Below, piece by piece: positions 2,543-13,536 of a stretch of DNA of 18,824 nt. The DNA is from an uncultured Oscillospiraceae bacterium (GTDB taxonomy: Bacteria; Bacillota; Clostridia; Oscillospirales; Oscillospiraceae). Positions within the stretch are counted from its first letter, which is position 1. Each line of letters begins with the position of its first letter. The translations under genes and the position numbers were made by a program. Below the pieces are notes generated by a model. The model worked only from the letters and a program-made list of their open reading frames with translations. It did no database searches and was not told the DNA's origin. The stretch lies in NCBI GenBank assembly GCA_934593275.1, contig CAKTQE010000047.1, forward strand, positions 1 through 18,824. Direction: 5' to 3'.

Positions 2543-4036
2543 ATGGCAAAGTACATCATGGCTCTGGACGCCGGCACAACTTCCAACCGTTGTATTCTTT
2601 TCAACGAGAGAGGCGAAATGTGCAGCGTCTCCCAGCGGGAGTTCCCCCAATACTTTCCGAAACCCGGCTGGGTAGAACACGATGCAAATGAAATCTGGGC
2701 CACGCAGCTGGGTGTCGCTGTGGAGGCCATGCAGAAGGTCGGTGCCACCGCGGCAGACATTGCGGCCATCGGTATCACCAACCAGCGTGAGACCGCCATC
2801 GTTTGGGATAAGGTCACCGGCGAACCCATCCACCATGCCATCGTATGGCAGTGCCGCCGTACCAGTGAGTACTGCGACTCCCTGAAAGCCAAGGGTCTGA
2901 CCGACTCTTTCCGGGCAAAGACCGGCCTGGTCATTGACGCTTACTTCTCCGGCACCAAGGTTCACTGGCTGCTGGAAAACGTTCCCGGCGCACGGGAGCG
3001 GGCAGAGCGGGGCGAGCTGCTGTTCGGTACCGTAGAAACCTGGCTGATCTGGAAGCTTACCGGCGGTAAGGTCCACGTGACCGACTACTCCAACGCTTCC
3101 CGTACCATGCTCTTTAACATCAACACCTTGCAGTGGGATGAGGATATTCTGAAAGAACTGAACATTCCTCGCTGTATGCTCCCGACCCCCATGCCCTCCA
3201 GCTGTGTTTACGGCGAGACCGATCCCTCCTTGTTGGGTGGACCCATTAAGATCGCCGGTGCCGCCGGTGACCAGCAGGCTGCCCTCTTTGGTCAGGCTTG
3301 CTATCATCCCGGTGAAGCCAAGAACACCTACGGAACTGGCGCGTTCCTGCTGATGAACACCGGCGAAAAGCCCGTCTTCTCTCAGAACGGTCTGGTCACC
3401 ACCATCGCCTGGGGCCTCAACGGCAAGGTAGAGTACGCTCTGGAAGGCTCCGTATTCGTAGCCGGTGCTGCCATTCAGTGGCTCCGTGACGAACTGAAAA
3501 TCATCGAGTCCGCTCCCGACTCCGAGTACTACGCCGGTAAGGTCAAGGATACCAACGGCTGCTACGTGGTTCCCGCATTCACCGGTCTGGGCGCGCCCCA
3601 CTGGGATCAGTACGCCCGCGGCACCATCGTTGGCATTACCCGTGGTGTCAACAAGAATCACATCATCCGTGCCACCATGGAATCTCTGGCCTACCAGGTC
3701 AATGATATCCTGGTCGCCATGCAGGCGGACTCCGGCATCAAGCTGGCTGCCCTGAACGTGGACGGCGGTGCTTCCGCCAACAACCTGCTCATGCAGATGC
3801 AGTCCGATATCTCCGGCGCGCCCGTCCAGCGGCCTACCTGCGTTGAAACCACCGCCATGGGTGCTGCCTACCTGGCCGGTCTGGCCGTGGGCTATTGGGC
3901 CAACAAGGAAGACGTGGTTCGCAACCGTGCCATCGACCAGGTATTCCATCCCGAAATCACCGCTGAGGAGCGGGCCGAGAAGGTCAAGGGCTGGAACAAG
4001 GCTGTGAAGTGCGCTTACGGCTGGGCCAAGGACTGA
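2543..4036 (+). CDS. glpK: Glycerol kinase
   Basis: A 497-residue FGGY kinase that phosphorylates glycerol with ATP to sn-glycerol-3-phosphate in the cytoplasm. Visible motifs are the N-terminal phosphate loop [13 protein letters not shown] (Asp9), the glycerol-contacting Arg82-Glu83 in ITNQRET, the catalytic Asp243 in [26 protein letters not shown] and the C-terminal [10 protein letters not shown]. Length matches the family. In enterococcal GlpK a phosphorylatable His lies in the loop just before the catalytic GDQQ. Here that loop reads DPSLLGG (227-233) with no His, so PTS/HPr control at that site is not expected. The gene has its own promoter and a strong ribosome binding site, and codons are strongly biased, as in well-expressed genes. 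The facilitator gene follows 70 bases downstream. Confidence 0.98.
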
Positions 4037-4106
4037 TTCGCAAGACCTGAAAACACCAGGTAGAAGAGCCTATTGGGCTTTGACATTTTGATAGGGAGGA
4101 AAAACC

Positions 4107-4823
4107 ATGTTCTTAAAGTATTTGTGTGAATTTCTCGGCACAATGTTGCTGATTCTGTTGGGCGACGGCGTTGTCGCAAACGTCACTCTGAACAAGTCCG
4201 GTATGAAGGGTGCCGGTTCCATCCAGATCACCCTGGCCTGGGGCCTTGCGGTCATGCTTCCCGCCTTTATCTTCGGTGAAGCCTCCGGCGCAAGCTTCAA
4301 CCCCGCTCTGACCATTGCGCTGGCAGTGGGCGGCATGTTCGATTGGGCATTGGTTCCCGGCTACATCGTTGCGCAGATCCTGGGCGGTATGGTCGGCGGT
4401 ATCCTGGTATACGTCATGTTCAAGGATCAGTTTGACGCTACCGACGATCCCGGCACCAAGCTGGGCGTGTTCTCCACCGGTCCTTCCATCCCCAATACCG
4501 GCCGGAACATCCTGCAGGAAGCCATCGCTACGTTCGTTCTGGTATTCGCCATCTGCGGCCTGAATCAGGTTCCCGAGCTGTCTGCCGGTGTTGGCAAGCT
4601 GCTGGTATTCGGCATCATCGTTTCCATCGGTATGTCCCTGGGCGGCCTGACCGGTTACGCTCTGAACCCCGCCCGTGACCTGGGTCCCCGTCTGGCTCAT
4701 GCCATCCTGCCCATCAAGGGCAAGGGCGACAGCAACTTCAAGTACGGCCTGGTAGTCCCCATCTTTGGACCCATCATCGGCGGTATCGTGGCGGTTCTGC
4801 TTTACAACGCCATTCCCTGGTAA
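4107..4823 (+). CDS. glpF: Glycerol facilitator (aquaglyceroporin)
   Basis: A 238-residue MIP-family channel for passive glycerol entry across the cytoplasmic membrane. Both pore motifs are intact: SFNPALT (Asn65-Pro-Ala) and LNPARDLGPR (Asn187-Pro-Ala-Arg-Asp). The Asp after NPAR is typical of glycerol-conducting rather than water-only channels. Six hydrophobic segments and two half-helices can be followed along the sequence. The ATG follows GGGAGGA by six bases. The 70-base gap from glpK contains two short hairpins (ACCTG...CAGGT and AGCC...GGCT), so it is probably on the glpK transcript. A large hairpin follows the gene. Confidence 0.96.
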   Translation: MFLKYLCEFLGTMLLILLGDGVVANVTLNKSGMKGAGSIQITLAWGLAVMLPAFIFGEASGASFNPALTIALAVGGMFDWALVPGYIVAQILGGMVGGILVYVMFKDQFDATDDPGTKLGVFSTGPSIPNTGRNILQEAIATFVLVFAICGLNQVPELSAGVGKLLVFGIIVSIGMSLGGLTGYALNPARDLGPRLAHAILPIKGKGDSNFKYGLVVPIFGPIIGGIVAVLLYNAIPW

Positions 4824-4870
4824 CAGCTTAGGTTCAGCATTATTGAATATTCTCTGCTCTAAGTGAACGT

Positions 4871-4918
4871 GTCGGGCAGTCCAGCTTCCTACCGGAAGGT
4901 TTACTTGGGCTGCCCGAC
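4871..4918 (+). terminator. Strong hairpin between glpF and the dehydrogenase genes
   Basis: GTCGGGCAG (4871-4879) pairs perfectly with CTGCCCGAC (4910-4918). An inner stem CTTCC-tacc-GGAAG adds further structure. Only TTTCTTG follows, so it could be a partial terminator or a processing and stability element that sets glpKF output above the downstream genes. The next ribosome binding site starts 15 bases later. Confidence 0.6.
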
Positions 4919-4946
4919 TTTCTTGAGTGGATAAGGAGGAATCTTC

Positions 4947-6398
4947 TTGTACGATATTATTGTGATCGGTGCCGGTGTTACCGGATGCGCCGTGGCCCGG
5001 TATCTGTCCCGGTATGAAGGCCGGATGCTGGTACTGGACAAGGAGGAGGATGTGTGCTGCGGCACCTCCAAGGCCAACAGTGCCATCATCCATGCGGGCT
5101 TTGACGCTGCCAACGGCACACTGATGGCCAAAATGAACCTGGAGGGCAATCTGATGATGCCCCAGCTTGCAAAGGATCTGGATTTTGATTTCCAGATGAA
5201 CGGCTCCTTGGTCGTGTGTATGTCTAAGGAAGACCTGCCCAAGCTCCAGGCTCTGTATGAAAACGGCGTTAAAAACGGGGTCAAACAGCTGGAAATCGTG
5301 GATGCCAAGCGGCTGCATGAGCTGGAACCCAATGTGTCCAAGAATGCCGTGGCGGCCCTTTGGGCACCCACCGGCGGCATTGTGTGTCCCTTTAATCTGA
5401 CCATTGCTCTGGCGGAAAACGCCTATGACAACGGTGTGGAATTCCAGTTTAACACCCAGGTCCAGGGCTTTACCTGGAAAGACGGCTACTGGGTCATCCA
5501 TACGGACAAGGGCGACTTGGAGACCCGGTATGTGGTCAACGCCGCCGGTGTCTATGCCGATGTGCTGCACAATATGGTTTCCACCCGGAAGCTGCACATT
5601 ACCCCCCGGCGGGGGGACTACTGTTTGCTGGACAAGAGTACCGGCGGCTTTGTTTCCCATACCATTTTCCAGCTGCCCGGCAAACTGGGCAAGGGCGTAC
5701 TGGTAAGCCCCACGGTTCACGGCAACACCATTGTCGGCCCTACGGCCATTGACGTAGAGGACCGGGAGGGAACCAATACCACCGCCGAGGGCTTGAACGA
5801 CCTGATCGCCAAGGCCGGTGTCACTGTTGAAAATCTGCCCATCCGCCAGACCATTACCAGCTTCGCCGGTCTCCGCGCCCACGAGGACCACCATGAATTT
5901 GTCATCGGACCCGCGGAGGGAACCCAGCAGTTTATTGACTGCGCCGGTATCGAGTCCCCAGGGTTATCTTCCTCTCCTGCCATCGGCTTGCACGTGGCGG
6001 AGCTGATGCGTGATATGATGGACTTGAAAGAAAAAGAACACTATATCCCCACCCGCAAGGGCGTTCTGGACCCCAAGACCCTTTCCAAGGAAGAGTATCA
6101 GGCCCTGATTCGTGAAAAACCCGCCTACGGCCAGATCATTTGCCGCTGCGAGCAGGTCACGGAGGGGGAAATTGTAGATTCCATCCACCGTTCTCTGGGT
6201 GCCAAGAGCCTGGACGGCGTAAAACGCCGCACCCGGGCGGGCATGGGCCGCTGTCAGGCGGGCTTCTGCAGCCCCCGGGTCATGGAAATTCTGGCACGGG
6301 AGTTGGGTGTTTCCCAGAGTGAGATCACCAAATGCGGCGGTCAGTCCAAGCTGATCACCGGTGTGAATAAAGACGCCATCGGGGAGGTGCAGCAGTAA
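4947..6398 (+). CDS. glpA: GlpA-like FAD glycerol-3-phosphate dehydrogenase
   Basis: A 483-residue FAD-dependent oxidoreductase of the DAO family, expected to oxidise glycerol-3-phosphate to dihydroxyacetone phosphate. The N-terminus has the dinucleotide fold VIGAGVTGCAVARYL. The C-terminus is a BFD-like [2Fe-2S] domain with Cys399-x-Cys401 and Cys436-x4-Cys441 (CRCEQVTEGEI, then GRCQAGFCSPR), the same order as in GlpA. The start is TTG at 4947, seven bases after AAGGAGGA; no in-frame ATG fits as well, and MYDIIVIGAG is a typical beginning. The stop overlaps the next ATG by one base. Context with glpK and glpF supports the substrate, but related enzymes use other 2-hydroxy substrates, so function is inferred from neighbourhood plus architecture. 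Confidence 0.85.
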   Translation: MYDIIVIGAGVTGCAVARYLSRYEGRMLVLDKEEDVCCGTSKANSAIIHAGFDAANGTLMAKMNLEGNLMMPQLAKDLDFDFQMNGSLVVCMSKEDLPKLQALYENGVKNGVKQLEIVDAKRLHELEPNVSKNAVAALWAPTGGIVCPFNLTIALAENAYDNGVEFQFNTQVQGFTWKDGYWVIHTDKGDLETRYVVNAAGVYADVLHNMVSTRKLHITPRRGDYCLLDKSTGGFVSHTIFQLPGKLGKGVLVSPTVHGNTIVGPTAIDVEDREGTNTTAEGLNDLIAKAGVTVENLPIRQTITSFAGLRAHEDHHEFVIGPAEGTQQFIDCAGIESPGLSSSPAIGLHVAELMRDMMDLKEKEHYIPTRKGVLDPKTLSKEEYQALIREKPAYGQIICRCEQVTEGEIVDSIHRSLGAKSLDGVKRRTRAGMGRCQAGFCSPRVMEILARELGVSQSEITKCGGQSKLITGVNKDAIGEVQQ

Positions 6399-7657
6399 TG
6401 AAATATGACATTGTTGTCATCGGCGGCGGCCCTGCCGGTCTGTCTGCCGCCATTGCGGCCTATGATGCCGGTTGCCGCAGCATCCTCATTCTGGAACGGG
6501 ACGTACAGTTGGGCGGCATTCTGAACCAGTGCATCCACAATGGCTTTGGTCTGCACACCTTCGGGGAAGAATTGACAGGCCCGGAATACGCCTCCCGTTA
6601 CATTGCCCAGGCCATGGAGCGGGGCATTGAATACAAGCTCAATACCATGGTTCTGTCCATCAGTGCGGACAAGCATATCACCGCCGTGAACCGGGAGGAG
6701 GGCCTTATTGAAATCGATGCCAGGGCTATTCTCCTCACCATGGGCTGCCGGGAGCGCAGCCGGGGTGCGCTGAATATCCCCGGCTACCGTCCCGCGGGCA
6801 TTTACTCCGCCGGTACCGCCCAGCGGCTTGTCAACATGGAGGGCTATATGCCCGGACGCCGGGTGGTGATTCTGGGCAGCGGCGACATTGGTCTCATTAT
6901 GGCCCGCCGCATGACTCTGGAGGGAGCCAAGGTGCTGGTGGTAGCGGAGCTGATGCCTTACTCCGGCGGCCTGAAACGGAACATCGTCCAGTGTCTCAAT
7001 GACTTTGACATTCCCTTGAAGCTCAGCCATACCGTGGTGGACATTGAGGGCAAGGAGCGGGTCACCGGCGTGACCATTGCCGAGGTCGGCCCGGACCGGA
7101 AGCCCATTCCCGGCACCGAGATCCACTATGACTGCGATACCCTGCTGCTTTCCTGCGGCCTGATTCCGGAAAACGAGCTGTCCCGTGGCATGGGCGTGGA
7201 GATTTCCCCTGTTACCAACGGCCCTGTTGTGGATGAAAGTCTGCAAACCAGCATCCCCGGTGTTTTCGCCGCCGGTAACGTCCTCCATGTCCACGACCTG
7301 GTTGACTACGTTTCCGAGGAAGCCGCAGCCGCGGGCCGTGCCGCCGTGCGGTACCTGGCCCAGGGCGCGTCTGCTTCCCGGCATGAAATCCCCGTCACCT
7401 TTGAGGGCGGTATCCGCTATACCGTCCCCGCCAGCATTGACACGGCCCTTGTCCAGGACGATCTGGTCATCCGTTTCCGGGTGGGCGGTGTGATGAAAAA
7501 GCGGGTGGTAAAGCTTTATCTGGGTGAAGACGCCGTTCTGTCCCGCAAGCGGCCTGTGATGGCCCCCGGCGAAATGGAAGAGCTGAAGCTCACCCGGGAA
7601 ATGCTGGCCGCCCATCCGGGGCTGAACCGGATCCATATTACAGTTGAGGAGGCATAA
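6398..7657 (+). CDS. FAD/NAD-dependent oxidoreductase (GlpB-position partner)
   Basis: A 419-residue pyridine-nucleotide-disulfide-type oxidoreductase with two dinucleotide folds: the FAD site VIGGGPAGLSAAIAAYDAG at the N-terminus and an NAD site LGSGDIGLIMARR from about residue 159. A conserved GGILNQCIHNGFG follows the first fold, and PGVFAAGNV is the second FAD motif. The start codon overlaps the stop of the GlpA-like gene (TAATG), indicating translational coupling and probably a complex. It sits where glpB would be but is of the NAD-linked type, so it may carry electrons between the dehydrogenase and NAD(H). The Fe-S protein gene follows two bases after its stop. Family is firm; the direct partner and acceptor are inferred. 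Confidence 0.85.
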   Translation: MKYDIVVIGGGPAGLSAAIAAYDAGCRSILILERDVQLGGILNQCIHNGFGLHTFGEELTGPEYASRYIAQAMERGIEYKLNTMVLSISADKHITAVNREEGLIEIDARAILLTMGCRERSRGALNIPGYRPAGIYSAGTAQRLVNMEGYMPGRRVVILGSGDIGLIMARRMTLEGAKVLVVAELMPYSGGLKRNIVQCLNDFDIPLKLSHTVVDIEGKERVTGVTIAEVGPDRKPIPGTEIHYDCDTLLLSCGLIPENELSRGMGVEISPVTNGPVVDESLQTSIPGVFAAGNVLHVHDLVDYVSEEAAAAGRAAVRYLAQGASASRHEIPVTFEGGIRYTVPASIDTALVQDDLVIRFRVGGVMKKRVVKLYLGEDAVLSRKRPVMAPGEMEELKLTREMLAAHPGLNRIHITVEEA

Positions 7658-7659
7658 CG

Positions 7660-8025
7660 ATGGCAAAACGTGAATTGACCTGCATCGGCTGCCCTCTGGG
7701 CTGTTCCATTACCGTGACTATGGAAAACGGTGAGATCAAAGATGTCACCGGCTACACCTGCAAGCGTGGCCATGACTACGCCAGAAAAGAAGTAACCAAT
7801 CCCACCAGAATCGTTACCAGCACCGTGCGCCTGACAGGCAGCCGCAACGGTGAGGCGGTGGTCAGCTGCAAGACCGCCCAGGATATTCCCAAGGGCAAGA
7901 TTTTTGACATTGTTTCCGCACTAAAGGGCGTAACGGCCAAGGCCCCCGTTCACATCGGTGACGTGCTCCTATCCAACGTCGCCGGAACCGGCGTGGACAT
8001 CGTCGCCACCAAAAATGTTCCCTAA
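7660..8025 (+). CDS. DUF1667 family Cys-rich protein
   Basis: A 121-residue protein whose N-terminus has Cys8-x2-Cys11-x3-Cys15 (CIGCPLGC) and Cys34 (TCKRGHDYA), a four-Cys set suited to an Fe-S cluster or a metal. The remainder contains TNPTRIVTSTVR, typical of DUF1667. It is the third gene of the redox trio, starts two bases after the previous stop with GAGGAGG upstream, and is followed by a strong terminator. The family is repeatedly found beside such FAD oxidoreductases; its biochemical role is not settled. It may act as an electron-transfer subunit, standing in for GlpC, which is absent here. Confidence 0.88.
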   Translation: MAKRELTCIGCPLGCSITVTMENGEIKDVTGYTCKRGHDYARKEVTNPTRIVTSTVRLTGSRNGEAVVSCKTAQDIPKGKIFDIVSALKGVTAKAPVHIGDVLLSNVAGTGVDIVATKNVP

Positions 8026-8410: not shown

Positions 8411-8508
8411 ATGTTGGGGGTGGTACCGTTCAGCCATACGAGTTCTATTTGTTACGTTGTATGGCGATGGATCATCGCCGCTGCATTGGGTGTACAGTAT
8501 AGGATGGT
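8396..8508. repeat. Mosaic palindromic repeat, copy 2
   Basis: This is the second copy of the family at 50-180: GCTCGGGATGACAT, GGGTGGTACCGTT, TTCTATTTGTTACG (8443-8456), the hairpin GGCGATGG-atc-atCGCC, then GCTGCATT. It lacks the extra GCCAGCCCC hairpin present in copy 1. The two copies run in the same orientation about 8.3 kb apart. Confidence 0.6.
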
Positions 8509-8565: not shown

Positions 8566-8592
8566 AAGCCATGCAATATCTGGCTTCTTTTT
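8566..8592 (+). terminator. Possible terminator or attenuator before the sigma gene
   Basis: AAGCCA (8566-8571) and TGGCTT (8581-8586) flank a nine-base loop and are followed by CTTTTTA. It may block read-through into the sigma operon or act as an attenuator if the start site lies upstream (TTGAAA at 8551-8556 is a weak -35 candidate). A small CCCC...GGGG hairpin follows near 8612-8623. Confidence 0.4.
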
Positions 8593-8644
8593 ACGCCTAT
8601 ATAAGTGTAACCCCTTTTGGGGAAAACAGATAGGAGGCGATCCT

Positions 8645-9199
8645 ATGGAGGATCAGGGAATTTTGGAGTTGTTTTTGAAACGCTCAGAGCAAGCGGTGGT
8701 GGAAACGGATAAGAAGTACGGCGGGTATTGCTATGCCATTGCCTACAATATTTTGTCTTCCCGGGAGGACTCGGAGGAGAGCGTGAATGATACATATCTC
8801 ACGGCCTGGAATACCATCCCGCCCAGGAAGCCCGGGGTTTTGGGGGCATTTTTAGGGAAGGTCACAAGACATCTGTCCATTGACCGGTGGCGAAAGCTTC
8901 GCACCCAGAAGCGGGGCGGCAAGGAGATGATATTGGCCCTGGAGGAGCTGGGGGACTGCGCCGACCCTCAGGGGCTGGAGGGGCAGCTGTCCCAGCGGGA
9001 ACTGGCCCGGGTTCTCAACAGCTTTCTGAACAGCCTGCCGGAAACGGAGCGAAATGTATTTTTGTGCCGGTACTGGTATGTGGATTCCATTGAGGCAATT
9101 GTCAGAATCACCGGCTTTTCCCAGAGCAAAGTTACCTCCATGCTCCACAGGACCCGGCAAAAGCTGTGGAAAAAACTGGGGGAGGAGGGCTTGGTATGA
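8645..9199 (+). CDS. ECF-like RNA polymerase sigma factor
   Basis: A 184-residue sigma-70-family protein with region 2 (about residues 20-90, including AYNILSSREDSEESVNDTYL and the DNA-contacting HLSIDRWRKLRTQKRGG) and region 4 (about 115-178, LNSLPETERNVFLCRYWYVD then the helix-turn-helix GFSQSKVTSMLHRTRQKLWK). There is no region 1 or 3, so it is an ECF-type or closely related alternative sigma factor. AGGAGG precedes the ATG. The last codons overlap the start of the next gene by four bases (ATGA), so the membrane protein is translationally coupled. That arrangement is usual for a sigma factor with its regulator. The inducing signal is unknown. Confidence 0.92.
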   Translation: MEDQGILELFLKRSEQAVVETDKKYGGYCYAIAYNILSSREDSEESVNDTYLTAWNTIPPRKPGVLGAFLGKVTRHLSIDRWRKLRTQKRGGKEMILALEELGDCADPQGLEGQLSQRELARVLNSFLNSLPETERNVFLCRYWYVDSIEAIVRITGFSQSKVTSMLHRTRQKLWKKLGEEGLV

Positions 9200-11271
9200 A
9201 TCCCATGGACATTATGAAAGGCCTGAACGGAATCAAAGACAGCTTCGTCATGGATGCCCAGGACTTCCGGCAGGGAAAACGAAAGGTTCGCCATATTCCC
9301 CATAAAAAACTCTGGCTCATTGCCGCCATCATCGCCCTGGCCCTGCTGCTGGTGGGGTGTACGGTGGTGTATGTGCTGCGGCTGCAGGATATGGCCTTTG
9401 GGCAGGATACCCAGGAGGTCCTTGGAAGCGGTGTGCAGGACCGAACACTGCTTTCCTTGCAGGGCGTCAAGGGAACACCGGGGTATCAGGCCACCAAGGA
9501 GTGGTACGAATGGCTGAAAACCTACGACCCGGATGACCGTATTTATCACTCCCAAGAGGCATTTTCCGAGGATTTTGGGGACGATTACTATGCCTACAAC
9601 CTCTATACCCGGGAAATGAAGGACAAGCTGGATGAAATCTGCGAGAAGTACCATCTGAATCTGTTAGGAAAAATGTATGTAGACCCGGACGAGGCGGCGG
9701 CCTGCAAGGCTCTGGGCATTCAGGGGATCCTCCGGAGCGATGCCCGGGCGCAGACCAATTTTGGCAGTGTGCGCTACTATGCTGACGGCTCCTTTACCGT
9801 GGAGGGAAAAATGACCCTGGAAACTCAGGTCTGGCCTTATGAGGAAATCGTGACCTTTTCCTGCTGCCGGAAGGACAGCTTCAGTGACCTTTACGGCTCC
9901 GTTGGCCCGGAGGGGACCTACGAGGAATGGACCTACACCACCTCCCAGGGGGTAGACGTGCTTCTGGTTCTGGAACAGCGGAACGCCATGAACCAGCAAA
10001 TTCTTCTGATGGCAGACCGGGGAGAATATGTGTTTACGTTCCATGCCCTGGAATATGACCGGGCGTGGACGAGGGAAGCCCTGGAAGCCTATGCGGAGGC
10101 TTTTGACTTTACCATCCAGCCCCAGAAAGTCCACCAGGAGGCCCTGGCCCAGACCCAGCAGCGCAGGGAGGAGGCCGACGAAGAAATCGCCCAAGATTTT
10201 GATAAAAAAGCACACTTCTATTCGGATTTGGGGTATGATGCACGAATTAAATCCAAAATGGAAATCAGTACCCATCCGTCACAGCTGGGCTTTTGTTTGA
10301 TGGACTTGGACGGGGACGGTGTGGAGGAACTGATCGTAGGTGAAAACGGTTACATCATGGATGTTTATACGAAGCGGGACGATGGCACACAAAAAATAAT
10401 GACGCCAACATTCGGCTTCTTTGGAATGATACAGGAATCCTGTCGTTATATCGACAGTATGGGCGAGATTCATGCTTCCAATTCTTATATGTATCTCTGC
10501 GAGGATCATACGTTGGCCTATGTCTCTGTTACTACCAGCGGCCAAAAGGCGTATTACTTTGCAAAAGTTGAAAATGGGAAATACACCTGGACGGACTGTG
10601 TGTTTTATTATCCCAATGTTGAGTATTACCAGGACAACCCCTGGATTTCAATTCCGGACATGAATAATAGCCACATCAAGGTTCCCATTACAGAGAAAAT
10701 ATTCAATCAGGTCGTTCAGTCCCATCCACGGGTTCCACCAACGTTCATACCCATCAGTCAATTTCCCTTGCCAGATAATGCGCCCAGCGGTATTACAGGA
10801 GAGGATCAAGTATATAGCTCCATCTCCCAGCTGTTGGAGGATTTGAAAGGCGATGGTTCCGATGATACCCCGTGGAACTACAGCCTCCTGGACCTGGACG
10901 GTGACGGACAGGAAGAACTGTTCCTGACCAAAGGGGCATGGAAAGGGGTTCTGACCGTTAAAAACGGCAGGGTGAAAATTCTGGAATGTGGGCAGGACAT
11001 CCGCATTTGCAAGGGGAATTACATTCTCCACACCTGCTCTTACTTAGACGGCAACAGTGCCACCAGCGTTTATAAGGTACAAAACGGAAACGCCGTCCTT
11101 GTAGACTATGTACGCTATGACAACAGCCGGGAAAACCCATGGCTTTACGCCCCGGATGCCCAGGACGAATCTCTGAAACCCATTACCAAGCAGCAATACG
11201 AGGACATTCTATCCAAATATGAGGCCATGACCCCGGAAATGCACCCGGTATCCGGGGGCGGCCTGTATTAA
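9196..11271 (+). CDS. Sigma-coupled single-pass membrane protein
   Basis: A 691-residue protein. ATG 9196 overlaps the sigma stop (ATGA) and has GGAGGAGGG just upstream; an in-frame upstream ATG at 9166 is less likely. Residues 1-38 are cytoplasmic and basic (RQGKRKVRHIPHKK), 39-63 form one membrane helix (LWLIAAIIALALLLVGC...), and the rest would be outside. The outer part has an unrecognised first half and two calcium-binding-like motifs, DLDGDGVEEL (370-379) and DLDGDGQEEL (566-575), resembling FG-GAP/VCBS-type loops. The coding sequence between about 10190 and 10830 is AT-richer than its flanks. By position and topology it is probably an anti-sigma or sensor, but no standard anti-sigma domain is recognised. 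Confidence 0.75.
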   Translation: MNPMDIMKGLNGIKDSFVMDAQDFRQGKRKVRHIPHKKLWLIAAIIALALLLVGCTVVYVLRLQDMAFGQDTQEVLGSGVQDRTLLSLQGVKGTPGYQATKEWYEWLKTYDPDDRIYHSQEAFSEDFGDDYYAYNLYTREMKDKLDEICEKYHLNLLGKMYVDPDEAAACKALGIQGILRSDARAQTNFGSVRYYADGSFTVEGKMTLETQVWPYEEIVTFSCCRKDSFSDLYGSVGPEGTYEEWTYTTSQGVDVLLVLEQRNAMNQQILLMADRGEYVFTFHALEYDRAWTREALEAYAEAFDFTIQPQKVHQEALAQTQQRREEADEEIAQDFDKKAHFYSDLGYDARIKSKMEISTHPSQLGFCLMDLDGDGVEELIVGENGYIMDVYTKRDDGTQKIMTPTFGFFGMIQESCRYIDSMGEIHASNSYMYLCEDHTLAYVSVTTSGQKAYYFAKVENGKYTWTDCVFYYPNVEYYQDNPWISIPDMNNSHIKVPITEKIFNQVVQSHPRVPPTFIPISQFPLPDNAPSGITGEDQVYSSISQLLEDLKGDGSDDTPWNYSLLDLDGDGQEELFLTKGAWKGVLTVKNGRVKILECGQDIRICKGNYILHTCSYLDGNSATSVYKVQNGNAVLVDYVRYDNSRENPWLYAPDAQDESLKPITKQQYEDILSKYEAMTPEMHPVSGGGLY

Positions 11272-11315
11272 CGGCCTGGGCGGCTTACCGCCGAAAGAAT
11301 GCAGGAGGAGCATGT

Positions 11316-12371
11316 ATGAATCCAATGGATATTATAAATGGCCTGGGCGGCATTGAGGATGGCTTTGTCATGGCCGCGGCGGCTTTCCGGCAGGGAAAGG
11401 GAAAGCTGCGGTCAGTGGCAAAGAAAAGACTTTGGCTTCTGGCGGCCATGATCGCCCTGGCCCTGCTGCTGGTGGGGTGTACGGTGGTGTATGTGGTTTC
11501 CGGGAGCAACTGGTATGCGGAACGCTGGTATAGAGACTTCTTTTCCACAAATGCGTCTACGGACAATCTGGAAGACCTGACTGGTCATCAGCAGCAGATC
11601 TGGAACCGGGGCCTGGTAAAGCTGGACCAGAGTGTGACCTGCAACGGTTATACCGTCACCCTGGAATCCGGAATCAGCGATGGGTACCGGATGCTTATCA
11701 AATACCGGATCGATGGGCCTGAGGGAATGGTCTTAAATGGGGACGGGTATCAGCTGCGCTACACCACGGATATGCAGATACCACATTTTGGTGATGGAGA
11801 TTATTCGCTGGGGGTCTATGGGGAAGAACTGCTGCAAGATGAAAACCCCAATGACGGCACTGTTTACGGCCTTTTTGAGTGGCTCTTTCAGCCACCGGAG
11901 GGGTCGGACTTCTCCATAACGGATGGCACACAGTGGAATATTACCGTCCATGAGATCTGGGAAGTAAACCGTTCTGCCGAAAAGAACGCTCTTACAACGC
12001 TCTGCCAAGGAACTTGGGCGTTTCAGGTGACCTTTTCGGAGGATTTGCTTGTGACAAATTCCACAGAGCTTGTGGAAAACACTGTCCGATGCGCGGCTTT
12101 TCGCAGTTTCAGAAACCGTCAGTTCCCCTTGAAAGTGCGGGTCACGTCTTTTGAACTGCGTTCTCTTTCAGCGACCCTGCGCTATAACATGCCGTTGACC
12201 GGCTCCTGGGAGGGAATCACCCTTGGCCCCATTTCCCTGGTCATGCAGGACGGAACCAAAATAGAGGCCCATTTCCGAACCTCCATCTACCGGGGAAACC
12301 AGGAAGAATGCCTCTATGTATTCGACCGCCCCATTGCCCCGGAGGATGTGGCCCGTATTGAATTTCCCTGA
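11316..12371 (+). CDS. Second membrane sensor-like protein with shared N-terminal module
   Basis: A 351-residue protein. Its first 60 residues closely match those of the preceding protein (MNPMDIINGLGGIEDGFVM..., FRQGKGK, then the helix LWLLAAMIALALLLVGC), but the outer domain is different. It is rich in beta-strand and has the look of a DUF4179/DUF5643-like, Ig-type ectodomain (YRMLIKYRIDGPEG, QWNITVHEIWEV, LGPISLVMQDGTKIEA). The ATG follows AGGAGG by eight bases; the gene starts 44 bases after the previous stop and ends at a strong terminator. It is probably in the sigma operon. A role as an alternative regulator of the same sigma factor is inferred from the shared module only. Confidence 0.75.
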   Translation: MNPMDIINGLGGIEDGFVMAAAAFRQGKGKLRSVAKKRLWLLAAMIALALLLVGCTVVYVVSGSNWYAERWYRDFFSTNASTDNLEDLTGHQQQIWNRGLVKLDQSVTCNGYTVTLESGISDGYRMLIKYRIDGPEGMVLNGDGYQLRYTTDMQIPHFGDGDYSLGVYGEELLQDENPNDGTVYGLFEWLFQPPEGSDFSITDGTQWNITVHEIWEVNRSAEKNALTTLCQGTWAFQVTFSEDLLVTNSTELVENTVRCAAFRSFRNRQFPLKVRVTSFELRSLSATLRYNMPLTGSWEGITLGPISLVMQDGTKIEAHFRTSIYRGNQEECLYVFDRPIAPEDVARIEFP

Positions 12372-12382
12372 CATTTAGAAAC

Positions 12383-12430
12383 TCCCCCTCTGCCATCCCA
12401 AAACGCTGGGCGGCAGAGGGGGATTTGTTG
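12383..12430. terminator. Shared terminator between convergent genes
   Basis: TCCCCCTCTGCC (12383-12394) pairs perfectly with GGCAGAGGGGGA (12412-12423). An inner CCCA...TGGG stem extends it. ATTTGTTGTG follows on the plus strand and AGTTTCTAAA on the minus strand, so it can serve both the sigma operon and the facing zinc-ribbon gene. Confidence 0.85.
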
Positions 12431-12444
12431 TGTGGGGCAGATGG

Positions 12445-13536
12445 TCAGCGTTTTACGGGAATGTCCAGCACCCCCAGTTCCCAGCCGGTGTCCTGGGTTT
12501 GGGCGGTGAGGGCGGCGGTGATTTTTCGGAGGGAATTCCAGTCCTCCTGGGGAACGCTGTAGAGTTCCAGGCAAAAGACACTGGTGGACTGGGCGGGAAG
12601 TTCGGCCCAGAGAAACGCTTCGGTGTCTTTGCCGTTGACCTGAATATCCTCCCCCAGAAGCTGCATATCCTGGTCGGTGTTGTTTTTGGCACACAGGAGG
12701 ATGGAGGAATCTATCAGCTGGTCCTCAGAGAAATAATCGCTGATAGGGCCAAGGCCGTAGAGTACCAGGTCTCCGGAGTCGTAGATGGGCTTTCCTGGCA
12801 GGGCCAGGGTGTGCCGGTAATCCGGGGCGGCGTTGCCCTGGATGGTCAGGTCATTCAGGTAAATGGGGTCTGCGGTGTCGTCTTTGTCGTCGTAGGCCGT
12901 CAGGTCAAAGTTGATGTTCTGGATTTGGGCGATGTTTCCTGCGGCAAGACCTTTCTGGCTGAGCCACAGCTGACCCGAAACGGTTTCGCCGGGGGCGGCT
13001 TCGATGTAAAAGCTGGCAAAGTCCGACAGGCACAGGTCATTGACAAACAGCCGTTCCAGCAAAAACACATAATCCCGGTCCGTGTGGTTCACAATGTAGA
13101 GAGGGATGGAATCTGTCTCACCGTCTTCCCACTGGGAAATGATGGTAAAGTCCTCGTTGTCTAGCAATGTGGCACCGTTCAAAGGCAGGCTCACGCTTTC
13201 CGTCTGCTCCGGGGCAGGGGGGAGGGTTACATAGTCGCTGCCCGTCAGGCAGCGCATCAGCAGGCCAAAGGGGTTGGCCAGAAAAAGACCCAGAATGGCA
13301 ATGACCACGGCTGAAGGAAGCCCCTTGCGCTTCCGCTTCTTTCGCTCCTGCCGGGGGCAGTCAAAGGGGTCTTTGTAGGGGATGGGCTTCCGGGTTTGCC
13401 CCTGGATGACCAGCGGTTCCCCCTGATGGACGTGGGTGCGGTGGGCGATCTCCTCGCTAAAGGACTCGTAGGCACAGTTCTTACATTTTTTTCCGTTAAA
13501 CGGGTTGCCGCAGCTGGGACAGACGTATCGAGCCAT
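12445..13536 (-). CDS. Zinc-ribbon membrane protein with tandem outer domains
   Basis: A 363-residue protein. A CxxC-x8-CxxC zinc ribbon opens it (Cys6, 9, 18 and 21). A linker with a very basic stretch RQERKKRKRK (62-71) leads to one membrane helix (about 73-94) and an outer region. The outer region seems to hold two related Ig-like units. One begins IPLYIVNHTDRDYVFLLE and the other ILLCAKNNTDQDMQLLGE; each continues with a VND/VNG turn and a later strand. AAGGAGG precedes the ATG, and a consensus-like promoter lies just upstream. No function is known. The topology, with an inner zinc ribbon and outer Ig-like domains, suggests envelope monitoring or binding, which is inference. Confidence 0.75.
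   Translation of the reverse strand: MARYVCPSCGNPFNGKKCKNCAYESFSEEIAHRTHVHQGEPLVIQGQTRKPIPYKDPFDCPRQERKKRKRKGLPSAVVIAILGLFLANPFGLLMRCLTGSDYVTLPPAPEQTESVSLPLNGATLLDNEDFTIISQWEDGETDSIPLYIVNHTDRDYVFLLERLFVNDLCLSDFASFYIEAAPGETVSGQLWLSQKGLAAGNIAQIQNINFDLTAYDDKDDTADPIYLNDLTIQGNAAPDYRHTLALPGKPIYDSGDLVLYGLGPISDYFSEDQLIDSSILLCAKNNTDQDMQLLGEDIQVNGKDTEAFLWAELPAQSTSVFCLELYSVPQEDWNSLRKITAALTAQTQDTGWELGVLDIPVKR

Follow-up and report, generated by a model that had tools for sequence, protein, structure and literature searches.

Among the anti-sigma factors described so far, RsiV has its cleavage site for type I signal peptidase within amphipathic helices of DUF4179, a domain found mainly in Firmicutes, and the structure 3FBQ is the extracellular domain of an anti-sigma factor of Bacillus anthracis (PMC6066255). 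CnrY contacts σ4 and σ2 of its sigma factor with two helices, and class I anti-sigma domains (ASDI), which consist of four helices and in some cases carry an Hx3Cx2C zinc site, co-evolve with their extracytoplasmic function (ECF) sigma factors with a distance correlation of 0.82, the domains attached to them being typically well conserved within a group (PMC7406223). In Clostridium thermocellum, paralogous sigma/anti-sigma pairs include RsgI proteins, which bind the sigma factor with their inner part and have a membrane helix followed by sensors on the outside (PMC6056542, PMC12203970), and in Mycobacterium smegmatis several RsbW homologues are found around a single sigma factor, SigF (PMC7693655). 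Here we describe a locus of an uncultured Oscillospiraceae bacterium with relatives from the guts of animals, in which one ECF sigma factor gene is followed by the genes of two membrane proteins, M1 and M2. The locus is part of a stretch of 18,824 nucleotides, referred to as the window (contig CAKTQE010000047.1, assembly GCA_934593275.1). We consider it likely that M1 and M2 are two anti-sigma factors of this one sigma factor, with a shared end of ~35 residues acting as the clamp and different ectodomains acting as sensors.

One sigma factor and two membrane proteins

The sigma factor gene (8645..9199, + strand, 184 amino acids) was identified as an open reading frame with matches to Pfam and TIGR models. 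The protein comprises regions 2 and 4, i.e. Sigma70_r2 (1.2e-07) and r4_2 (2.6e-07), both above cut-off as is TIGR02937, and the Pfam scan gave no region 3 model up to E 1; four PDB sequences match it, CnrH (4cxf, E 8.9e-04) among them. The ATG of M1 at 9196 overlaps the sigma stop codon as ATGA. M1, the predicted anti-sigma factor (9196..11271, + strand, 691 amino acids), and M2, the predicted second one (11316..12371, + strand, 351 amino acids), have 43 of their 60 N-terminal residues in common, 23 of these within the first 37, and BLASTP finds no similarity beyond residue 62 (best E 4.1). This bears out the description in an earlier note, made from the letters of this DNA alone, of a sigma factor with two membrane proteins that have a common inner module and different outer domains.

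In the structure models, the inner segments (residues 1-37, encoded on the + strand by 9196..9306 in M1 and 11316..11426 in M2) each contain two short helices, at residues 3-9 and 16-25 in M1, with a predicted local distance difference test score (pLDDT) of only ~50, and at residues 3-10 and 15-25 in M2, again with low pLDDT; the membrane helix of M1 spans residues 36-65. That the segment of M1 is a short anti-sigma domain is predicted from these helices together with the co-variation of such segments with sigma factors detailed below, and the segment of M2 is assigned by its model helices and its similarity to that of M1. No four-helix ASDI was found in M1 or M2, which have ~37 residues with two short low-confidence helices ahead of the membrane helix. 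Searched against PDB sequences, neither the module nor the M2 alignment gave a sound match (best E 0.79 and 0.46, respectively).

The earlier note had seen no recognised anti-sigma domain in the two proteins. This remains true of residues 1-35 in M1 and M2 alike and of M1 as a whole, where no anti-sigma Pfam model appeared up to E 1, but not of residues 36-133 of M2, which match DUF4179 (36.4 bits against a cut-off of 30.1), a match found in 35 of 35 members of the M2-type alignment A3 at E 0.01. DUF4179 is not listed for M1 up to E 1, though the membrane segment of M1 is nearly that of M2. The predicted structure of M2 moreover matches 3FBQ. By the features tested, i.e. DUF4179 and a predicted 3FBQ-like ectodomain, M2 is thus of the known DUF4179 anti-sigma kind, and M1, with an ectodomain of FG-GAP-type repeats, belongs to no named kind found in this analysis. 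Assigning the fold of M1 by PDB match was tried and given up: 35 matches had E <=0.001 (best 7.4e-06, mostly DDB1, with the lectin PLL3 at probability 0.84) but superposed with template modelling (TM) scores of ~0.1-0.2 and root-mean-square deviations >20, and we therefore assign no fold to M1.

Linkage, co-variation and probable exchange of ectodomains

Relatives of the module were found by protein searches (20 and 90) and by a scan of species genomes, which gave 31 module loci, 14 of them titled Oscillospiraceae and the others Clostridia, Clostridiales, Eubacteriales or Bacillota; the titles Pseudoflavonifractor, Candidatus Faecousia and plain 'uncultured bacterium' appear once each. All 23 genomes behind these loci contain the module, with 1 to 15 matches each (E 0.001). 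At E 1e-9 it occurs in 27 of 81 genomes of a genus-level sample around genome G001 and in 26 of 81 around G002, a sample of nearly the same genomes. Its distribution is patchy, since in a family-wide sample around G006 the same threshold was passed by 1 of 61 genomes, the centre genome itself.

Linkage was counted over 81 stretches, the window and 80 others taken from genomes, which are a subset of all genome places found. The earlier note had suggested looking for the module beside sigma genes in other genomes, and rather than being spread over unlinked proteins it lies directly behind genes of one sigma clade: in these related Clostridia, 98 of 105 module matches start within 14 nt of the stop codon of a clade sigma gene, 86 of them as ATGA overlaps. 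The seven matches without an adjacent clade sigma gene are M2 of the window, M2 of locus L072, L104 (where the contig ends), L108 (a partial match that follows a distant sigma gene), L111 (a partial match whose matched part begins 65 nt into a gene that itself abuts a clade sigma gene) and two in L088. The latter (L088:12382-13903, - strand) form a tandem pair whose match is limited to the membrane part of the module, the first of them lying behind a distant sigma gene, and may constitute another two-partner locus. Common as the module is, one sigma factor with two full module proteins occurs only in the window and in L072 among the 81 stretches. Because 98 of 105 matches are adjacent to a sigma gene and two-partner loci are rare, one partner per sigma factor is the rule; the arrangement highlighted in the earlier note is therefore present in the window yet exceptional, a local addition to a one-to-one system. 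Selection by the sigma factor instead of the module yielded 61 further sigma genes. A partner was called for 58 of them, wrongly framed in two cases; 31 of the 58 match the module profile, and others are similar at the N-terminus as judged by eye. The 144 sigma matches gave 126 sigma/partner pairs once duplicates, and cases in which no partner could be called, were excluded. A set of 161 partners combines the 105 pairs with 56 of the 61 sigma-selected cases, three having no partner on the contig and two, L142 and L193, being wrongly framed.

The inner end is the part of the partner that goes with the sigma factor. In 98 of the 105 pairs (short sigma factors or partners excluded, loci found via M2 included), similarity between sigma factors correlates with similarity between the first ~34 residues of their partners with a rho of 0.69, which none of 999 permutations reached (best 0.09), and with similarity between the membrane segments with a rho of 0.04. 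The correlation with the inner end is 0.68 when the ectodomain is partialled out, and 0.75 within single genomes (185 pairs, loci L032-L111 only). For the ectodomain, the partial correlation given the inner end is 0.04 (96 of 999 permutations). Likewise, for the nearest neighbour of a sigma factor the inner end is within the top five in similarity in 78 of 98 cases, the ectodomain in 31 of 98. Since the inner end tracks the sigma factor and the membrane segment and ectodomain hardly do, this end very likely represents a short anti-sigma domain of a kind not described before, on which ectodomains can be exchanged.

Mosaic partners fit this picture. M2-type ectodomains occur on several inner ends, on a milder variant in P0112 and on quite different ones in P0117, P0118, P0121, P0124 and P0128, and relatives of P0002 join like ectodomains to unlike inner ends. 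M2-type (DUF4179) ectodomains are also found behind distant ECF sigma genes outside the clade, on entirely different N-termini (L113, L115, L116, L117, L120, L121, L125, L126 and L140); other sigma groups thus have sensors of this type as well. The pair L085/L071 has similarity scores of 0.92 for the ectodomain, 0.06 for the inner end and 0.35 for the sigma factor; in L040/L098 the sigma factors (0.94) and inner ends (0.98) are close and the ectodomains score 0. In L043/L033, whose sigma factors are near that of the window, 75 of 75 nt are the same, to a point 15 nt beyond the first base of the membrane cysteine codon, and then only 3 of 15 (scored in ungapped 15-nt blocks), the change thus lying near this conserved cysteine. 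We infer exchange as the simplest reading of these mosaics. M2 itself probably stems from a duplicated module, or from a fusion of the module with an ectodomain of the kind found behind other sigma factors in relatives. Two further proteins, P0051 and P0052, are identical at 57 of 58 module residues and have different ectodomains (26% identical), which suggests that another species has two partners of one sigma type.

Within the modules of the window, the stretch of 45 identical bases pointed out in the earlier note is exact: 9331..9375 in M1 and 11451..11495 in M2 (both + strand). Taking the codon usage of 11 genes in the window as reference, 15 of 15 codons in this run are the same versus 6.2 expected (uncorrected p ~1e-6, for a run chosen after the fact), so that the identity exceeds what conservation of the protein predicts. 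A possible, though on balance doubtful, explanation is nevertheless that codon bias acting on a conserved peptide, rather than recent exchange between M1 and M2, keeps the run identical. Codon agreement in the membrane segment is indeed generally raised: among 91 module genes it amounts to 0.48 within and 0.46 between genomes, compared with 0.35 expected; some cross-genome pairs exceed the window pair, and M1 has 16 of 19 codons in common with one gene of another genome. All this tempers the significance of the codon identity in the window. Such a constraint would fit less well with the difference within one and the same gene pair, in which the remaining 28 common residues have 16 same codons (14.9 expected), nor does it account easily for the window pair (15 of 17 codons) ranking top among 99 same-genome pairs with >=12 common residues (loci L032-L111 plus the window). 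There is also a mosaic at the protein level: in the M2 homologue P0018, the central part of the module has residues of the M1 type that match P0042/P0043, with 52 of 60 residues in common with P0043 and 44 with the M2-type P0010, a pattern suggestive of sequence exchange among M1- and M2-type copies.

The run also covers a lipobox-like LVGC motif (9349..9360 in M1, within the membrane helix, and 11469..11480 in M2, both + strand; residues 52-55 in both proteins), with a hydrophobic stretch before the cysteine, and ends at 9375, 18 nt past the start of the cysteine codon at 9358. Such a motif is present in 98 of 105 clade partners, a set selected mostly by the module, 70 of them with exactly LVGC, numbers that are inflated because the search profile contains LVGC. 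In these 98 relatives, position -1 is G in 90 and A in 8, and position -3 is L in 91; the pattern, a second source of inflation, required the cysteine and allowed only G, A or S at -1. Over the 161 partners, ordered from the most to the least similar sigma factor, the motif was found in 19/19, 24/40, 20/32, 39/46 and 24/24 (a mixed selection), with A-x-A or neither motif in the rest; M2-type proteins with other inner ends often have an A-x-A-like motif at the matching place of the alignment, judged by eye. In M1 and M2 the N-region is ~38 residues long and hydrophobic residues follow the cysteine, both unusual for lipoproteins, which speaks against ordinary lipoproteins. Genes for LspA and an M50 protease were present in 6 of 6 related genomes, as expected in almost any bacterium. 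A far-reaching scheme would be one of plug-in sensors, in which a sigma-specific clamp of ~35 residues is joined to freely swapped ectodomains at the DNA of the membrane helix, used as a recombination joint, and LspA makes the first cut at LVGC as a functional lipobox; in the window, two sensors on one sigma factor would form an AND-type switch, the two genes staying matched through exchange of the joint segment. Taken as a whole, this scheme seems unlikely to us.

Promoter, mechanism and rival readings

Upstream of the sigma gene, a predicted ECF-type promoter of the sigma/M1/M2 operon (TGCAAT-N16-CGCCTA, 8572..8599, + strand) was found by motif pattern and is the sole match of the strict pattern in the window. 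The strict pattern occurs in 19 of 157 upstream regions, as against a mean of 0.23 (max 2) in 200 block shuffles, and a loose version precedes 16 of 19 genes in the set of closest sigma factors, to which the window belongs, and 23 of 138 others, a distribution by which the motif marks a subgroup and not the whole clade. A longer pattern built on the sites found has 8 matches in 6 genomes of relatives and none in a reversed control, and all 8 lie 26-43 nt before a clade sigma gene. The sigma factor is thus likely to autoregulate its own operon, as judged from these motifs. At two of these eight loci, both of the close subgroup (L060:2415-4200 and L142:1900-4258), the sigma gene has kept the promoter and the partner is gone or broken; in L060 the sigma gene is broken too, with a transposase-like frame nearby, noted by eye. 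A copy of a dispersed 39-nt repeat (three copies, 72-77% alike, at 76-217 and 8418-8456 of the window) begins at 8418, upstream of the promoter motif.

If M1 and M2 work as we propose, in the manner of known sigma/anti-sigma pairs, the ~35 N-terminal residues that they share, predicted to form two short helices, would hold the sigma factor at the membrane like a clamp, and the two unrelated ectodomains would sense different signals. A signal would first cause cleavage on the outer face of the membrane helix (site 1), and an M50 protease would then cut inside the helix (site 2), as in RsiV, freeing the sigma factor to switch on its own operon. With two inhibitors at similar levels, the sigma factor would become fully free only once both are removed, i.e. 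the locus would behave like an AND gate, a two-input logic that applies only if both M1 and M2 inhibit this sigma factor.

Several observations weigh against this proposal. The inner segments that would form the clamp are modelled at pLDDT near 50. The correlation between sigma factor and ectodomain, with a rho of 0.17, is weak, yet before correction it lies above all 999 permutations. Most of the nine pairs checked, L043/L033 apart, lose identity gradually along the gene, and the loose promoter motif, being found in only 39 of 157 regions, is missing before most clade sigma genes. The main weakness is that sigma factor and inner end adjoin on the DNA, so that recombination downstream of them could produce the same correlation without any binding. 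Second partners provide a check on such a linkage artefact because they lie away from the sigma gene. The inner segment of M2, 2.1 kb from the sigma gene, is nearest to that of M1 among 161 N-termini (0.67, next 0.54); L072 gives weaker support, as there the inner end of M2 is nearest to those of L065 (0.69) and L040 (0.61), its own M1 being third (0.56).

It also has to be asked whether the module touches the sigma factor at all, or is a signal for membrane targeting or export that stands behind sigma genes by plain gene order. The membrane segment is after all the most conserved part of the module and includes the lipobox-like motif. It is the part ahead of the helix, however, and not the helix itself, that co-varies with the sigma factor, and partners outside the clade (L113, L115, L116, L121 and others) differ at the N-terminus despite their M2-type ectodomains, and we therefore regard a mere export signal as highly improbable. 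Another alternative is that M1 alone inhibits the sigma factor and that M2, a duplicated module with another ectodomain, is a by-product that decays or serves another sigma factor. The rarity of the full two-partner layout (2 loci), the presence of up to 15 module matches per genome and the existence of broken loci in the family (L060 and L142) would be in line with such a fate. M2 is intact, however, and 13 homologues, also of 351 amino acids, retain 86-96% ectodomain identity, its inner segment is closest to that of M1, and the mosaic P0018 suggests that M1- and M2-type copies exchange sequence; we rate a by-product as rather improbable.

Should the reading proposed here be right, little-studied gut Clostridia would hold sigma switches in which sensor heads are exchanged as cassettes and a short clamp stays with the sigma factor. 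Their loci would constitute natural domain-swap experiments and offer a minimal anti-sigma tag for building sensors, the window would provide a simple case of one sigma factor read by two sensors, and a name would be available for inhibitors with inner ends that went without a Pfam match in this analysis.

Neighbourhood and comparison with known systems

Downstream of M2, a hairpin (CCCCCTCTGCC...GGCAGAGGGGG, 12384..12422, no strand assigned), read from the sequence and missed by a simple hairpin scan, is possibly the end of the operon. It is followed by a convergent gene (12448-13536, - strand) for a zinc-ribbon-like protein without clear family, Pfam DZR being below cut-off (E 0.053). Upstream of the sigma locus (2543-8025) lie genes for a kinase, a channel, two oxidoreductases and a small DUF protein, named by sequence appearance, which look like a glycerol operon, and at the beginning of the window there is a 73-nt inverted repeat (173-245/329-401). 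A search of a plasmid collection with 8600-12400 gave no match, and in IMG/VR 45 pattern matches included 0 relatives by tblastn, so that there is no sign of a phage element in that collection.

Literature searches over open-access PMC papers, most of them judged by their search entries, gave no precedent for the arrangement in the window. PMC10733313, considered as a precedent for two inhibitors, was set aside, as its passages on the subject deal with antagonist domains and not two inhibitors. Among known systems, the SigM inhibitors YhdL and YhdK of B. subtilis are a case of two partners at one sigma factor. The SigF/RsbW system resembles the locus in having several anti-sigma homologues for one sigma factor, but RsbW proteins are soluble partner-switching kinases of a non-ECF sigma factor and not membrane sensors.

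In its general layout, i.e. paralogous pairs with an inner part, a membrane helix and outer sensors, the system is reminiscent of RsgI/SigI, but in RsgI the inner part is longer and each sigma factor has a single partner. SigI, in addition, has σ2 only (PMC6056542), whereas the sigma factor of the window has both region 2 and region 4. With ASDI the module has in common its co-variation with an ECF sigma factor, but it offers only ~37 residues before the membrane helix, and the attached domains are not conserved within the group, the opposite of what is seen for ASDI. CnrY, a class II anti-sigma factor, likewise has a membrane helix, and its two helices resemble the two short ones predicted for M1 and M2; in contrast to CnrY, the module has no sound match among PDB sequences, as noted above.

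The closest relatives of M2 in architecture are RsiV of B. subtilis and BAS1627 of B. anthracis (group ECF30), which, as predicted for M2, are single-pass partners of an ECF sigma factor and belong to the DUF4179 kind; M2 also has the predicted fold of the 3FBQ ectodomain. They differ from the proteins described here in several respects. The inner segment of M1 and M2, without a Pfam anti-sigma match, may be one such difference; LVGC is located in the outer part of the membrane helix, and M1 shows no DUF4179 match. The window has two partners per sigma factor, and in this family the ectodomain is not fixed to the sigma group.

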